From assembly GCF_021502585.1 (NCBI RefSeq), contig NZ_JAKFGM010000003.1:186001-250000 (forward strand): a stretch of 64,000 nucleotides of DNA. The letters run 5' to 3'. Positions within the stretch are counted from its first letter, which is position 1. Each line of letters opens with the position of its first letter. The notes under the pieces are model-generated. The model was not told the origin of the DNA. It searched no databases and saw only the letters and a program-made list of their open reading frames with translations. Positions 11,614-16,390 of this stretch are shown here, in pieces. Made by a program: the position numbers and the translations under genes. This DNA comes from Sphingomonas cremea (GTDB lineage Bacteria > Pseudomonadota > Alphaproteobacteria > Sphingomonadales > Sphingomonadaceae).

Positions 11614-12324
11614 TCAGCCGCGGTCGCGGCTGAGTTCGTCCACCTCGGCCATGATTTCCTGAAGTGCTGACTGATCCGGGTCGGTCTTATGCTGACGGCG
11701 CGATGGCAGCTTGCCGCCAGTCAGCAGCGCCTCGAGCGCCACCCGGCCGCGCGCCACCCGGCTCTTGATTGTGCCGACCGCACATCCGCAAATTTCCGCA
11801 GCTTCCTCATAGGCAAAGCCCCCTGCGCCGACCAGGATCAGCGCCTCGCGCTGCGGCTGGGGCAAGTGCAGCAAGGCACGCTGCATGTCGCCCAGTTCGA
11901 CGTGGCGGTCCTGGCTGGCCGGTGCGGAAAGGATCTTCGCCGCGACGACATCGTCCCACTCGCCCTTGAAGCGAGCGCGGCGCATCTGGCTGAGGAAAAG
12001 ATTGCGCAGGATGATGAAAGTCCAGGCCCGCATGTTCGTCCCGGCCTGAAAGCGCTTGCGAGCCGCCCATGCCTTGAGCAGCGTCTCCTGCACCAGGTCA
12101 TCGGCAAGATCACGGCTACCCGACAACGAACGGCCAAAGGCGCGCAAATGCGGGATGACTTGCGCCAGCTGGACCTTGAACTCGTCGTCCGGCAGCGGCA
12201 CCAGCTCGGCGCGCTCGACATCTGCTTCTTCGCTGTCCGGTCGATCAGTCAATGAATCCCGCCCCGTTTGGCCATCGGCAGAGTCGCCCGCCGCCGAACC
12301 ATGATAGCCTTCGCTGCTACACAT
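11614..12324 (-). CDS. ecfG: General stress response ECF sigma factor EcfG
   Basis: An ECF sigma factor of the EcfG (ECF15) type that directs RNA polymerase to general stress genes and is held inactive by NepR. Region sigma-2 reads DLADDLVQETLLKAWAARKR and AWTFIILRNLFLSQMRR; sigma-4 reads LPQPQREALILVGAGGFAYE and CAVGTIKSRVARGR. The frame is open up to 12513, but that start overlaps the predicted EcfG promoter and runs through a separate small gene, so the ATG at 12324 is preferred (236 residues). No strong ribosome site is seen before it, and only 11 bases separate it from the small membrane protein gene upstream, so translation may be coupled. The promoter match at 12514-12538 predicts autoregulation. 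Confidence 0.92.
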   Translation of the reverse strand: MCSSEGYHGSAAGDSADGQTGRDSLTDRPDSEEADVERAELVPLPDDEFKVQLAQVIPHLRAFGRSLSGSRDLADDLVQETLLKAWAARKRFQAGTNMRAWTFIILRNLFLSQMRRARFKGEWDDVVAAKILSAPASQDRHVELGDMQRALLHLPQPQREALILVGAGGFAYEEAAEICGCAVGTIKSRVARGRVALEALLTGGKLPSRRQHKTDPDQSALQEIMAEVDELSRDRG

Positions 12325-12513: not shown

Positions 12514-12538
12514 AACGACGCGGGCTGCGACCTGTTCC
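12514..12538 (-). promoter_or_regulatory. EcfG-type promoter (GGAAC-N16-CGTT) for the ecfG operon
   Basis: Reading the minus strand, GGAAC (12538-12534) is followed after exactly 16 bases by CGTT (12517-12514). This is a perfect match to the published alphaproteobacterial general-stress sigma factor promoter. It lies 38 bases upstream of the ATG of the 46-residue protein and 190 bases upstream of ecfG, in the correct orientation, predicting positive autoregulation. Confidence 0.8.
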
Positions 12539-12563: not shown

Positions 12564-13364
12564 CTAGGCAGCCGGAACGGTCGCGGCGTCGAAAAACAGC
12601 GCCTGGCTGATCGCCGCCTTCACTGTCGACCTTTGGAACGGCTTGGTGATCAGGAAGGTCGGCTCGGGCCTCGCCCCGGTCAGCAGCCGTTCCGGAAATG
12701 CGGTGATGAAGATCACCGGCACCGAGAATTCGGCAAGGATGTCCTTGACCGCATCGATTCCGCTGCTGTCGTCGGCCAGCTGGATGTCTGCCAGCACGAG
12801 TCCGGGCGGCGACTTCCTGGCTTGGGCGACCGCTTCGTCACGGGTCACGGCAACCCCGGTTACGTTGTGGCCGAGGTCTCGGACGATCGACTCGATATCC
12901 ATGGCGATGATCGGCTCATCCTCGATAATCAGCACGTCGGCATGGGTTTGCCGTTCAATTTCGGCCATCGCCTCCGCGACCAGGCTTTCGACATCCTCAG
13001 GCGTGGCGTCGATCAGATAAGCTGTATCCTCGCTGGAGAAGCCCTCAAGGCTGGTAAGCAGCAGCGCCTGGCGAGAAAGCGGCGTGATCCGCGAAAGCCG
13101 GGCCTGGGCAATGCCCTCGGGTCCGCCAATTTCCATCGACGGTTCCTCACCTTCTTCGATGTTGGCGCTCGACCAGATGGCATGGAAGGTGCGGTAGAGT
13201 CCGAGGCGTGGATCAACGTCGCGCGGAAAATCGTCGGGCGAAGCGACGATCGTCTCCAGCGTCGCGCGGACGAATGCGTCGCCATGGACCTGGCTGCCCG
13301 TCAGGGCGCGCGCATAGCGGCGAAGGAAGGGAAGATGTGGTGCGAGTTCCTGGCCCAGCGACAT
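12564..13364 (-). CDS. phyR: General stress response regulator PhyR
   Basis: PhyR (266 residues) is the anti-anti-sigma switch of the GSR. Residues 1-140 form the sigma-like domain that mimics EcfG (LPFLRRYARALTGS, SRQALLLTSLEGFSSEDTAY), and residues 143-260 form a receiver domain (DVLIIEDEP) with phospho-acceptor Asp193 in VLADIQ, the FAT GUY-type motif FITAFPERLLTG and conserved Lys241 in ITKPF. When phosphorylated, the sigma-like domain binds NepR and releases EcfG. It is divergent from nepR, with 294 bases between their chosen starts. No EcfG-type promoter was found reading toward phyR, so it may have a different promoter. Confidence 0.96.
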   Translation of the reverse strand: MSLGQELAPHLPFLRRYARALTGSQVHGDAFVRATLETIVASPDDFPRDVDPRLGLYRTFHAIWSSANIEEGEEPSMEIGGPEGIAQARLSRITPLSRQALLLTSLEGFSSEDTAYLIDATPEDVESLVAEAMAEIERQTHADVLIIEDEPIIAMDIESIVRDLGHNVTGVAVTRDEAVAQARKSPPGLVLADIQLADDSSGIDAVKDILAEFSVPVIFITAFPERLLTGARPEPTFLITKPFQRSTVKAAISQALFFDAATVPAA

Positions 13365-13528: not shown

Positions 13529-13658
13529 CCTCTCCCAACCTGCACTGCTCGTCGCATGGATTGACGGCACGAGCGGGCGGGCGATAGTGCCCTTGGCTCA
13601 TCGGCGGCTTTTCGGAGCCCCGTTGGCTATGCGCCGAGTTTTAGAGTTGAAGAAGGAT

Positions 13659-13874
13659 ATGGCGCATATGCTTGCGCTCGAGGGGGACGAGAGGTTGAGT
13701 GGGACTCAAAAAGCCAATGGCAAACGCGAGCCATCCGGCTCCAACCCTCGTGACAGCAAGGCCCGCAAGGACCGCAAGGGAACCGTCGGGCGAGCGCTCC
13801 GGACGGTTTATGACGATATGCTGCGCGAAGAGGTTCCCAGGGACTTTCTGGACCTGCTGCGCAAGCTGGACTAA
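13659..13874 (+). CDS. nepR: Anti-sigma factor NepR
   Basis: A 71-residue NepR that sequesters EcfG until phosphorylated PhyR binds it. The family core is plain in the C-terminal half: GRALRTVYDDMLREEVPRDF followed by LDLLRKLD, preceded by a basic, disordered N-terminus. The frame is open from 13587, but the ATG at 13659 follows GAAGAAGG with suitable spacing; ATG at 13668 is an alternative. The kinase gene follows after 27 bases in the same direction, so the two are probably co-transcribed, from the EcfG-type promoter at 13503-13528. Divergent phyR lies upstream. Confidence 0.9.
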   Translation: MAHMLALEGDERLSGTQKANGKREPSGSNPRDSKARKDRKGTVGRALRTVYDDMLREEVPRDFLDLLRKLD

Positions 13875-13901: not shown

Positions 13902-15443
13902 ATGGAGCGCCGGCACTCCCTGTTGGAGCGCTGGCCGACAGGGGCCGTCATGCTTCTGCTTTTGACAGTGGCACTGCTGCCGCTGGGCTTGGTCCTCGCC
14001 TGGATCGCGCAGCAAAATGTAAGGGAAACCAACAGGGCGCTGGTCGAACGCGCTGACCAGCAAGGGCTGGTGGCATTCCAATCGATCGAAAGTCTTATTG
14101 CGCGCAATGCCCTGGCGCTTCGGATCGCGGCCAACGGTGCGCTGACCTATGACCGGGCCCAGCCTTGCGCCGCGGCGACCCGGTCCCTCGCGATCTCGCC
14201 CGCAGTCGCGACCCAGTTCCGCATACGCGACAGCAGCGGCAAGACGATTTGCACGGTCGGCCAGTTCAGGCCGGAACGCGACGATTTGCTGGTCGCCCCG
14301 GGCGACATCCGCATGTGGGTGTCCCCGCAAAACCTTGTCTCTTACCGCGTCGGGCTGGCCGGCGGGATGGCTACCGGCGTGCTTACGCCGGAAGAGCTTC
14401 GCAAGGCGGCGCTCGACGCGACCGGTGGACTTCGCGGGCTGACGATCAGCGATGGGGCAAATGAACTGTCGGTAATCAAAATGCCGACACCGGCCGCAGA
14501 TGGACGCCTTGCCCATGAACGAACCTACGAGGTTGGCGACGGCCAGCTACACGTCCGGGCAGAGACGTCGGTTGAGAGTACAACCCTTCTCGACCAGATC
14601 GTCATGCTGTTGCCGGTGCTGATGTGGGTGGCCGCTACCCTGCTAAGCTGGCTGTTGGTTCGGCGATTGCTGCTTGTGCCGCTGGCCAGCCTGCAACGAG
14701 CAGTCAGCGAGTATCAGCCCGATGGCGAAGGCCTCGTCCTTCCGGCCAAGCTTGGTGTCGCATCCGAAATTCGCGAGCTAAGCGACGCCTTCGAGCGTGC
14801 TGTCGACCGCATCGAGGGCGCCGAGCGCGAGGCGGTCGTTGCCCTCGATGGCCAACGGCGGCTGGTCCGTGAAGTGCATCATCGGGTGAAGAACAATCTT
14901 CAGGTGGTTGCCTCGCTGCTCAGCATTCACGGCCGAAGCGCATCGAAGCAAGAGGCCAAGGATGCCTATTCTGCGATCGGCCGGCGAGTCGACGCTCTTT
15001 CGGTGGTTCATCGCCATCACTATGCCGAGTTGGAAGAAAATCGCGGTATCGCGCTTCGTCCCCTGCTGACCGAGCTGGCTGCTGACCTTCGCTCCAGCGC
15101 TCCGGCAGAGGCTCGCGGAATGCGCATCGAACTCGACTTGGACGCGCCATCGACAACCCAGGATGTCGCCGTCGCATCCTCTTTTCTTGTCACCGAAATC
15201 GTCGAATTCGCAATGCTTCGGCATCCCAACGACAGCATCGAGATTTCGCTGCGGCGCGAGGATGAGCTCACCGCCACTCTGGCCATATCATCATCGGTGT
15301 TGATTCCCGATGGCGCGCCGGACGATGTCGCCAAGCAGCAATTCGAGCGAATTGTGGAAGGACTGGCCCGCCAGCTTCGCTCTCCGCTCGATCGCAAACT
15401 GGGCCGCTACGCGGTCACTTTGCCGGTATTCCCAAAGGACTGA
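13902..15443 (+). CDS. phyP: HisKA_2 sensor kinase with degenerate ATPase domain (PhyP-like)
   Basis: A 513-residue membrane sensor: transmembrane helix 1 at about residues 17-37, a periplasmic domain of about 190 residues, helix 2 at about 230-252, a HAMP-like linker, and a HisKA_2 box REVHHRVKNNLQVVASLLS with phospho-acceptor His near residue 326. The C-terminal ATPase region has no recognisable N-box (SSFLVTEIVEFAMLRHP stands at its place) and no DxGxG or GxGL glycine boxes. In Sphingomonas sp. Fr1 the kinase-like protein PhyP next to nepR is a negative regulator acting on PhyR, probably as a phosphatase; location and degenerate ATPase fit that role here. Assignment as PhyP is by position and architecture, not alignment. 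Confidence 0.78.
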   Translation: MERRHSLLERWPTGAVMLLLLTVALLPLGLVLAWIAQQNVRETNRALVERADQQGLVAFQSIESLIARNALALRIAANGALTYDRAQPCAAATRSLAISPAVATQFRIRDSSGKTICTVGQFRPERDDLLVAPGDIRMWVSPQNLVSYRVGLAGGMATGVLTPEELRKAALDATGGLRGLTISDGANELSVIKMPTPAADGRLAHERTYEVGDGQLHVRAETSVESTTLLDQIVMLLPVLMWVAATLLSWLLVRRLLLVPLASLQRAVSEYQPDGEGLVLPAKLGVASEIRELSDAFERAVDRIEGAEREAVVALDGQRRLVREVHHRVKNNLQVVASLLSIHGRSASKQEAKDAYSAIGRRVDALSVVHRHHYAELEENRGIALRPLLTELAADLRSSAPAEARGMRIELDLDAPSTTQDVAVASSFLVTEIVEFAMLRHPNDSIEISLRREDELTATLAISSSVLIPDGAPDDVAKQQFERIVEGLARQLRSPLDRKLGRYAVTLPVFPKD

Positions 15444-15495
15444 CCGGCACCTGCAGAAAAATGCGACGAACCGTTGAATAAATTTCATTCGGGCG

Positions 15496-15521
15496 GGAAC
15501 CGAGTCCGAAAAAGGGACGTT
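15496..15521 (+). promoter_or_regulatory. EcfG-type promoter (GGAAC-N17-CGTT) of a candidate small RNA
   Basis: GGAAC at 15496-15500 and CGTT at 15518-15521 are separated by 17 bases, matching the GSR consensus. It reads on the plus strand, away from the end of the PhyP-like kinase gene and into the antisense of the tatC 3' end. No protein-coding frame follows; instead two C-rich stem-loops and a terminator follow (15527-15632). Confidence 0.7.
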
Positions 15522-16390
15522 TAAGGTTCTGGATAGTGACCTTTTGCCCCCCCGCTCTCGCTATCCGACGAAATGGGCCCGGAATCGCCAACCCTCCCCC
15601 CCCCCGGTGGCGCTTTCGGGCCCACATTTTTGTCTGCGGCAGACGCGCGCCGGGCGGCGCGCCAATGGGTCAGGCGGATCGCCAAAATCGCAAACTCGTA
15701 GAGCGCATAGAGCGGAACGAGCAGCAGCAGCATGGATACGACATCGGGCGGCGTCAGCACCGCCGAAACTGCGGCGGCCACTACGATCGCATAGCGTCGT
15801 GATTTGGCGAGCTGTTGCCGGGTCACGATCCCAGCCCGCTCCAGCACCATCAGCAACACCGGCGTCAGGAATGCCACGCCAAACCCGAACAGGAAGCGCG
15901 TGACGAAATTCAGGTAATTGCCGATGGCCGGCAGCGCCTCCTGCGTAACGCCGCCGACATTGCCCTCGAATCCCAGCAGGAATTTCAACGCCCAGGGCAT
16001 TGCAACGAAATAGGCAAAGCTGGCGCCGCCCACGAAAAAGAAGGGCGTCATCAACAGGAATGGCAGGAAGGCCTTTTTTTCCTTGGCATAAAGACCGGGC
16101 GCGACGAACCGCCAGATCTGTGTCGCCAGCACCGGGAAGCTGATCATCAGCGCCGCGAAAAAGGCGACCTTTACCTCGACAAAAAAGGCTTCGAAAATGT
16201 CGGTGTAGATGAGCTTGCCCTGCCCGGCGGCGAGCAGCGGCTGCACCAGCACCGCGAAGATCGGCTTGGCGAAGTAGAGGCAAACGAAGAAGCCGGCGAA
16301 GAGCGTCACCACGCACCACAGCAGCCGACGGCGAAGCTCTACCAGATGGTCGAGCAGCGGCGCCTTGGTCTCATCGATGTCACTGATCAT
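15521..16390 (-). CDS. tatC: Twin-arginine translocase subunit TatC
   Basis: TatC (289 residues) is the polytopic receptor of the Tat pathway that binds twin-arginine signal peptides and exports folded proteins. The conserved N-terminal LLDHLVELRRRLLW, the first cytoplasmic loop FxxxAxPxF-like region, and FVAPGLYAKEKKAFLPF are all present, with six hydrophobic helices. The start overlaps the tatB stop (ATGA). After the last helix (about residue 245) there is an unusual Gly/Ser-rich tail of about 35 residues (KAPPGGGRVGDSGP onward), which coincides with the terminator and candidate small RNA on the other strand; the tail codons may be shaped by those elements rather than by TatC function. Confidence 0.96.
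   Translation of the reverse strand: MISDIDETKAPLLDHLVELRRRLLWCVVTLFAGFFVCLYFAKPIFAVLVQPLLAAGQGKLIYTDIFEAFFVEVKVAFFAALMISFPVLATQIWRFVAPGLYAKEKKAFLPFLLMTPFFFVGGASFAYFVAMPWALKFLLGFEGNVGGVTQEALPAIGNYLNFVTRFLFGFGVAFLTPVLLMVLERAGIVTRQQLAKSRRYAIVVAAAVSAVLTPPDVVSMLLLLVPLYALYEFAILAIRLTHWRAARRASAADKNVGPKAPPGGGRVGDSGPISSDSESGGAKGHYPEP
15527..15632 (+). ncRNA. gsrN: Candidate GsrN-like stress-induced small RNA
   Basis: A predicted RNA of about 105 bases begins 6-7 bases after an EcfG-type -10. It folds into two hairpins: GGATAG (15531-15536) with CTATCC (15561-15566), exposing a loop with seven consecutive C residues, and a 16-bp near-perfect stem (15575-15590 with 15608-15623), exposing a loop of CCC-T-C-rich sequence, then TTTTT (15627-15631). 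The Caulobacter GsrN RNA is known to be made from a general-stress promoter and to act through C-rich loops on mRNA leaders, and homologues have been reported near ecfG loci. Promoter, loops, terminator and location all fit. It overlaps the 3' end of tatC antisense. The symbol is by analogy only; no alignment was made. Confidence 0.6.
15575..15631 (+). terminator. Rho-independent terminator (plus strand)
   Basis: GGGCCCG (15575-15581) pairs with CGGGCCC (15617-15623); the stem continues inward through GAA/TTT and CGCCA/TGGCG with one mismatch and one G-T pair. T5 follows at 15627-15631. It can end both the nepR-kinase transcript and the candidate small RNA. On the minus strand it lies within tatC codons and has no T-run. 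Confidence 0.7.

Follow-up and report, generated by a model that had tools for sequence, protein, structure and literature searches.

The window, by which we mean the whole 64-kb stretch of Sphingomonas cremea DNA that was analysed, carries a gene for a predicted small RNA of about 105 nt on the plus strand (15528-15632), and comparison of genomes indicates that this RNA is conserved in many sphingomonads. With a probability of a little under 0.8, we read it as a small RNA that acts in trans within the general stress response (GSR) of sphingomonads. No description of this RNA was found in the open-licence PMC literature. Within the literature searched the family is previously undescribed; judged from its sequences, it is very probably controlled by EcfG and probably acts as a base-pairing stress regulator.

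Promoter, hairpins and conservation of the RNA

The promoter of the EcfG type (15496-15521, plus strand) consists of a -35 element GGAAC (15496-15500), a 17-nt spacer and a -10 element CGTT (15518-15521). The start of the RNA was placed from this promoter and its end from the terminator. Hairpin 1 (15531-15566, plus strand) has a stem of 9 bp formed by GGATAGTGA (15531-15539) and TCGCTATCC (15558-15566), and its loop CCTTTTGCCCCCCCGCTC (also written CCUUUUGCCCCCCCGCUC) contains a run of seven C (15547-15553), the proposed seed. Hairpin 2 (15575-15632, plus strand) is closed by an outer stem, GGGCCCG (15575-15581) with CGGGCCC (15617-15623), and also has an inner stem; a run of ten C (15596-15605) lies in its loop and five T follow (15627-15631), making it an intrinsic terminator and possibly a second seed. 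The promoter, the two hairpins with C-rich loops and the five T named by the sequence-only reading can be read directly in the sequence, and covariation, synteny and the conserved promoter lend strong support to its proposal of a small RNA gene of about 105 nt in which hairpin 2 doubles as terminator.

The predicted fold of 15527-15632 has an energy of -44.4 kcal/mol compared to a mean of -27 for shuffled sequences (z = -5.78), and none of 200 shuffles was equally stable. In the window alone, the promoter pattern is seen 8 times where 4.92 are expected in 64 kb, and 15 of 100 shuffles reach 8. By itself the pattern is therefore not significant in 64 kb and the evidence from the single genome is only suggestive; the promoter gains its significance from being conserved across relatives.

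With 15480-15640 as blastn query, 149 genomes of Sphingomonadaceae yielded 60 matches with E<=0.1. For 39 matches E was <=1e-4, and many of the top alignments began at the transcript, not at the promoter. The 30 best sequences, the window among them, were aligned with MAFFT without regard to structure, and the structure was predicted with RNAalifold from the same alignment. It comprises 22 base pairs, 17 of them with two-sided compensatory change, namely 5 of the 9 pairs of hairpin 1 and 12 of the 13 of hairpin 2. Paired bases fill 97.7% of the alignment cells and 27-48% when the partner is slid by 1-3 columns, a comparison in which taking the structure from the same alignment favours the real version over the slid ones. 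Two-sided changes were counted in 50 cells compared to 8.7 in shuffles, and none of 500 shuffles reached any of the five measures, where kinship of the sequences favours the real alignment. From the size of the covariation and the 12 of 13 pairs of hairpin 2 we infer that other explanations are hard to find. On the fold z-score and the covariation relative to shuffles, chance hairpins were rejected.

Frames found mechanically on the plus strand (15536-15802 and 15544-15903) and the tatC frame do cross the RNA, so that the earlier statement that there is no coding frame is literally wrong; it holds in the sense that no conserved coding was seen. That the element is a short protein-coding gene has next to no likelihood in our view, as its stems covary and the changes in loop length are not multiples of three. 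Moreover, of 42 related sequences only 15 have an ATG in the linker, and the frames it opens vary between 5 and 102 codons; nothing coding therefore looks conserved. A small open reading frame was rejected on these grounds, neither the linker ATG nor the frame length being conserved.

A covariance model, R1, was built from the 30 sequences and finds the RNA in the window, itself one of the 30, at 15526-15637 with 100.6 bits (E 3.4e-22). Among 298 genomes of Sphingomonadaceae, 128 have a match at E<=0.01 (46 of 96 genera) and 108 at E<=1e-6 (38 of 96 genera). All seven matches below about 40 bits that were fetched in the family (L104-L108, L111, L112) have no correctly placed EcfG box; such matches are, judging by their sequences, probably mostly due to chance, and 128 of 298 is therefore an upper estimate. 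In the order sample 37 of 147 genomes matched at E<=0.1, with 11 of these being weak matches in the family f5, and in the class sample 5 of 385 matched, two in Sphingomonadaceae and three weakly outside, whereby the searches of more than 40 genomes used stricter filters with which weak matches are lost. The covariance search in related sphingomonad genomes, which had been proposed as a check, thus recovered a conserved RNA with covarying stems.

Named genomes were also scanned for the loop and stem pattern, the promoter being left out of the pattern, and this gave at least 119 stretches. Among the matches listed are Sphingomonas, Sphingomicrobium, Sphingosinicella, Stakelama, Sphingorhabdus, Hephaestia, Parasphingopyxis and 'Sphingomonas-like' genomes; other titles listed read Sphingomonadaceae or Sphingomonadales, and a few only Alphaproteobacteria, Proteobacteria or uncultured bacterium. 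The pattern is also present in the genome of Sphingomonas echinoides ATCC 14820 (L201). At gathering score Rfam 15 has no match in the window, and up to E 10 the region 15380-15750 has one chance-level match (15645-15675, minus strand) that lies outside the RNA. On nine related loci only tRNA matches were obtained. Membership of any Rfam 15 family was accordingly rejected for the window and the related loci, and the alignment could serve to found a new Rfam family.

The EcfG box in the form GGAAC-N16-18-GTT is found at a fixed distance from the RNA in 42 of 49 in-family regions compared to 46 of 104,364 control positions, the control being the same pattern at other positions of the same regions. 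With a narrower box pattern the numbers are 38 of 49 and 42 of 104,364. The seven regions without box are all R1 matches of less than about 40 bits. In the pattern scan GGAAC-N15-18-GTT lies at most 75 nt upstream in 116 of the at least 119 stretches, which are related to one another and not independent, compared to 110 of 23,126 random 75-nt windows of the same stretches; of the three stretches without box, one is truncated where its locus ends, and the other two show GGAACC but no -10 element that fits. One spacing, GGAAC-N16-CGTT or its GGTT/TGTT variants, is found in 30 of 33 chosen regions, the spacer in the window being one base longer. The spacer columns are 33-67% identical. Bases that the pattern does not force are conserved as well, with the sixth base being C in 93% and the C of CGTT present in 77%. 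From the -10 box to hairpin 1 the distance is 9 nt in 24 of the 27 measurable sequences of the 30. Loss of promoter and C-rich loops in close relatives, which the sequence-only reading had named as evidence against it, was checked on the sequences and did not refute it.

A C-run of at least six is present in hairpin 1 in 41 of the 42 box-bearing sequences and one of at least five in both hairpins in 40 of 42, a conservation that follows in part from how R1 found the sequences. In the predicted folds the C-runs are mostly unpaired, and in the core group of 30 sequences their flanks (CUUUUG...GCUCU) are conserved too. Three genomes, G012 (L101), G217 (L109) and G225 (L110), have second copies far from the GSR locus between frames that were judged unrelated by eye. 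These copies keep the EcfG box and the loop GCCCCCC(C)GCTC with the stem sequences replaced; in L110 the C-run of hairpin 2 is only four C long. Since promoter and loop are kept in the second copies and the stems are not, the C-rich loop is likely to be the working part of the RNA and its seed.

Neighbourhood of the RNA

Directly upstream of the RNA lies a gene for a HisKA_2/HWE sensor kinase similar to PhyK/PhyT (13902-15443, plus strand; PF07568 and PF07536 over cut-off, NCBIfam PhyK below cut-off), preceded by the anti-sigma factor NepR (13587-13874, plus strand; PF18557 over cut-off, the NCBIfam NepR model below cut-off). The response regulator PhyR (12564-13364, minus strand) was recognised by NF006623 over cut-off, PF22029, PF22233 and solved relatives, and the EcfG-type sigma factor (11614-12240, minus strand) by PF04542, PF08281, PF22029 and TIGR02937 over cut-off. 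The start codon of EcfG is uncertain, its open frame extending to 12513. To the right of the RNA and on the opposite strand lie tatC (15521-16390, minus strand; 289 residues, the matches to TIGR00945 and PF00902 ending at residues 231 and 226) and, next to it, tatB; the frames beyond tatB, which served as BLAST queries, are from their sequences presumably tatA, scpB, scpA, nagZ and argS. A further EcfG-like box stands at 12514-12538 on the minus strand between phyR and ecfG, adjoining the ecfG frame, and its position suggests that ecfG may be autoregulated.

The layout of the window, with ecfG and phyR on one side and tatC on the other, is found in 25 of the 42 box-bearing regions. In 10 regions tatC is present and no GSR gene was detected within 8 kb (L075, L092-L096, L099, L100, L102, L103), in two only the GSR side is present (L087, L113) and in five neither side (L085, L098, L101, L109, L110), the sole GSR match in L085 being a PhyR at 33% identity. 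Overall, 27 of the 42 regions have detected ecfG and phyR genes no more than 8 kb away, and the commonest neighbour is tatC with 35 of 42.

Since tatC is so frequent a neighbour and its frame ends, in the window, in a stretch complementary to the RNA, the RNA could be taken for a cis-antisense regulator of tatC. However, tatC stops short of the RNA in 36 of the 37 relatives in which its stop can be placed (34 of 35 with a box), in three by about 2 kb, the sole relative with overlap being L114 of the same genus as the window. The last 36 or so codons that are overlapped in the window lie outside the TatC domain models, and the second copies away from tatC retain promoter and C-rich loop. Control of tatC in cis was thus rejected for want of overlap in the relatives and is very improbable, and the overlap itself appears incidental on comparison of these sequences. 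The earlier description of the RNA as antisense to the last tatC codons is correct for the window, where the tatC stop is at 15521, but does not extend to a general feature.

Equally improbable is that the element is a mere terminator between the convergent kinase and tatC genes with a promoter that arose by chance. Convergent genes do flank it and hairpin 2 looks like a terminator; however, the box is kept at a fixed distance, the loop of hairpin 1 is strongly conserved and the RNA is also present at loci without a detected kinase close by. For the preferred reading, a trans-acting RNA of the stress response, the distribution among genomes sets a limit. In all 26 of the 26 family genomes without R1 match that were examined, the 1.2 kb downstream of tatC hold no combination of box and C-rich RNA, although lone boxes or lone C-runs do occur, and one of the 26 (G020) has a 23-bit R1 match elsewhere. 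The absence of the RNA from these genomes is, on this sequence comparison, probably real, and two of them have PhyR. From its absence beside tatC, including these two PhyR genomes, it follows that the RNA does not belong to the response in every genome.

Comparison with GsrN and other C-rich RNAs

The passages on GsrN of Caulobacter in PMC5869019 describe an RNA of about 100-106 nt with a general stress sigma promoter (GGAAC/CGTT), an intrinsic terminator and a 5' C-rich loop of six tandem C, whose gene typically lies near ecfG/nepR/phyR, though not in C. crescentus. According to the same passages no gene like gsrN is apparent in Erythrobacter litoralis; no word beginning with 'sphingomon' stands in the main text of that paper. 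Further traits of GsrN are its cleavage to a stable 5' isoform of about 51-54 nt and its requirement for surviving oxidative or osmotic stress. The RNA of the window resembles GsrN in its promoter at 15496-15521, which appears conserved among relatives, in the adjoining ecfG/nepR/phyR genes, in its similar size and in the C-run of the 5' hairpin loop, here of seven C compared to six. It is a concrete and easily deleted candidate for a GsrN-like role in sphingomonads, for which we found none described.

For comparison, 39 phyR regions from the class sample (20 of one set and 19 of the 20 of a second), two of them from Sphingomonadaceae, were inspected, and five (L249, L256, L263, L306 and, less convincing, L309) have a box with a C-rich stretch and a terminator behind it. 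In L249, on the minus strand near 6456-6310, an EcfG box near phyR precedes an RNA that contains GACGCCCCCCCGACTTG and a terminator with GAAA loop. The PhyR of L249 has as nearest chain 3n0r with 430 bits compared to 283 for the next solved PhyR, and 3n0r we take to be Caulobacter PhyR. Place and sequence make it probable that the RNA of L249 is GsrN and that its genome belongs to Caulobacteraceae. In L293, which carries the same family label, the locus holds no such candidate.

The L249 candidate has the core GCCCCCCCG, nine bases identical to the loop core of the sphingomonad RNA, and with the shared promoter type, neighbourhood, similar length and 5' C-rich stretch this speaks for a true GsrN orthologue that has diverged beyond recognition by sequence. 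We nevertheless consider such descent unlikely. R1 does not detect the L249 candidate even with filters off and the class search is almost empty outside Sphingomonadaceae. The layout differs as well, L249 having a separate GAAA-loop hairpin after the C-run, a C-run that is partly paired in the predicted fold and a GAAA terminator loop, whereas the sphingomonad RNA has a single, simple hairpin 1 and a terminator with a C-rich loop. In addition, C-rich loops also occur in other RNAs, for instance the CCUCCUCCC RNAs of Rhizobiales treated in passages of PMC3927594. Homology to GsrN at the level of R1, assessed with the positional candidate of L249 and not with the C. crescentus sequence, was therefore rejected. 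The resemblance to GsrN is one of design; membership is not supported. From the earlier alternative of a functional analogue or a homologue, the analogue is plausible and the homologue, in view of the R1 result for L249 and the weak class search, finds no support.

EcfG boxes followed by short RNAs with strong terminators were also seen in L263 near 2924 and L306 near 3696 (both plus strand) and in L256 near 8039 (minus strand), with the stretch CATCCCTCATCC in L263 and L306 and CCTCCCCCGC also among the stretches of the three regions. Their features make these RNAs probable GsrN-like RNAs of other families. For Rhizobiaceae and relatives, the pertinent passages of PMC5869019 list putative GsrN-like RNAs, predicted by EcfG box, GSR place, partly expression and an exposed C-rich 5' loop; as far as those passages go, their sequences differ from the RNA described here and their C-runs are shorter or interrupted, as in CATCCCTCATCC of L263 and L306. 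The SmelA075/SmelA099-type RNAs of Rhizobiales, in the passages of PMC3927594 devoted to them, are made of several hairpins in which the C-rich loops are conserved and the stems vary more. They differ in their three or four hairpins and in the anti-Shine-Dalgarno loop CCUCCUCCC, the C-run here being unbroken, and an EcfG promoter is not mentioned in these passages.

The weak R1 matches in f5, a family of the same order, belong, as their sequences indicate, to another RNA, which was seen in nine of ten fetched f5 regions (L115-L117 and L119-L124, not L118). It has a stem GATACAG...CTGTGTC around TTAGCTCCCTTGATCTGA, followed by a terminator hairpin of the type CGGAACCG, whose loop is of the CTCCCCC type, and a run of T. 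The model starts at about 8000 in the oriented locus and R1 scores are about 22-28 bits; no EcfG box was found at the right distance and no Rfam match in L115 and L117.

Proposed mechanism and possible targets

In the proposed mechanism PhyR would free EcfG from NepR, and EcfG would then transcribe the RNA of about 105 nt from the promoter at 15496-15521. The transcript would begin 1-3 nt before the 9-bp hairpin and extend to the intrinsic terminator. G-rich stretches of mRNAs would be bound by the exposed C-run in the loop of hairpin 1, perhaps also by the one in the terminator hairpin, and the translation or stability of these mRNAs would change, as with GsrN in Caulobacter. By analogy, such pairing is the most likely mechanism; we infer transcription, dependence on EcfG, the G-rich targets and the direction of regulation. 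It seems rather probable that the undescribed family, present in 38-46 of 96 sampled genera of Sphingomonadaceae, forms a post-transcriptional arm of the general stress response, with the hairpin loop as a portable seed that is re-used with new stems. If true, this would make C-run stress RNAs at EcfG loci a design that recurs among Alphaproteobacteria, perhaps by convergence, and whether the C-run stress RNAs of this locus are homologous or convergent can now be asked.

The motif GCGGGGGG occurs 76 times in the genome compared to 80 times for the reversed pattern, hence without enrichment, and 3 of 30 examined sites lie at a frame start compared to 9% of random positions. The motif GGGGGGCAA occurs 16 times compared to 6 for the reversed pattern, but one of these sites is the complement of the RNA itself, and all except one of the 16 lie inside mechanical frames. 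Tests that focus on starts have limited power, because many of the GsrN-enriched regions in Table 1 of PMC5869019, as far as this part of the paper shows, are marked as internal to genes.

Pairing of GsrN with the katG leader was studied with swapped loop and leader mutations, as given in the relevant passages of PMC5869019. Duplex energies of the sphingomonad RNA with 22 katG leaders (21 of 30 genomes have katG) were compared in silico with mononucleotide shuffles; 1 of 22 leaders reached p<=0.01 and 4 of 22 p<=0.10, and the leader of the window's own genome (L368) gave p 0.23, with start codons chosen by rule and some of them doubtful. Pairing with the katG leader was not supported, and in this the RNA differs from GsrN.

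That no clear mRNA target site was found, and that one RNA has two C-rich loops, would also fit an RNA that sequesters a protein, such as an RNA chaperone or a C-run-binding protein, and does not pair with mRNAs. We know of no such binding or sequestered protein for sphingomonads. The conserved flanks of the C-run (CUUUUG...GCUCU) suit pairing with specific partners, and sequestration is in our judgement quite improbable compared to the preferred trans-acting, base-pairing RNA.

In the in-family regions L067-L114 and L126, G-runs of at least five were seen in 15 of 55 PhyR and EcfG leaders compared to 20 of the 277 leaders that belong to ten other genes, a post hoc comparison over 12 neighbouring genes that was pooled after looking (p 8e-5, uncorrected). 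The mean duplex energies of the loop with the PhyR and EcfG leaders (-17.3 and -16.3) are no stronger than those with ScpB (-17.7) and NagZ (-17.9). The G-runs stand at no fixed site, the PhyR leader of the window has none and the EcfG starts are uncertain. We therefore rest no claim on these G-runs, which could hint at a feedback of the RNA on the stress regulators.
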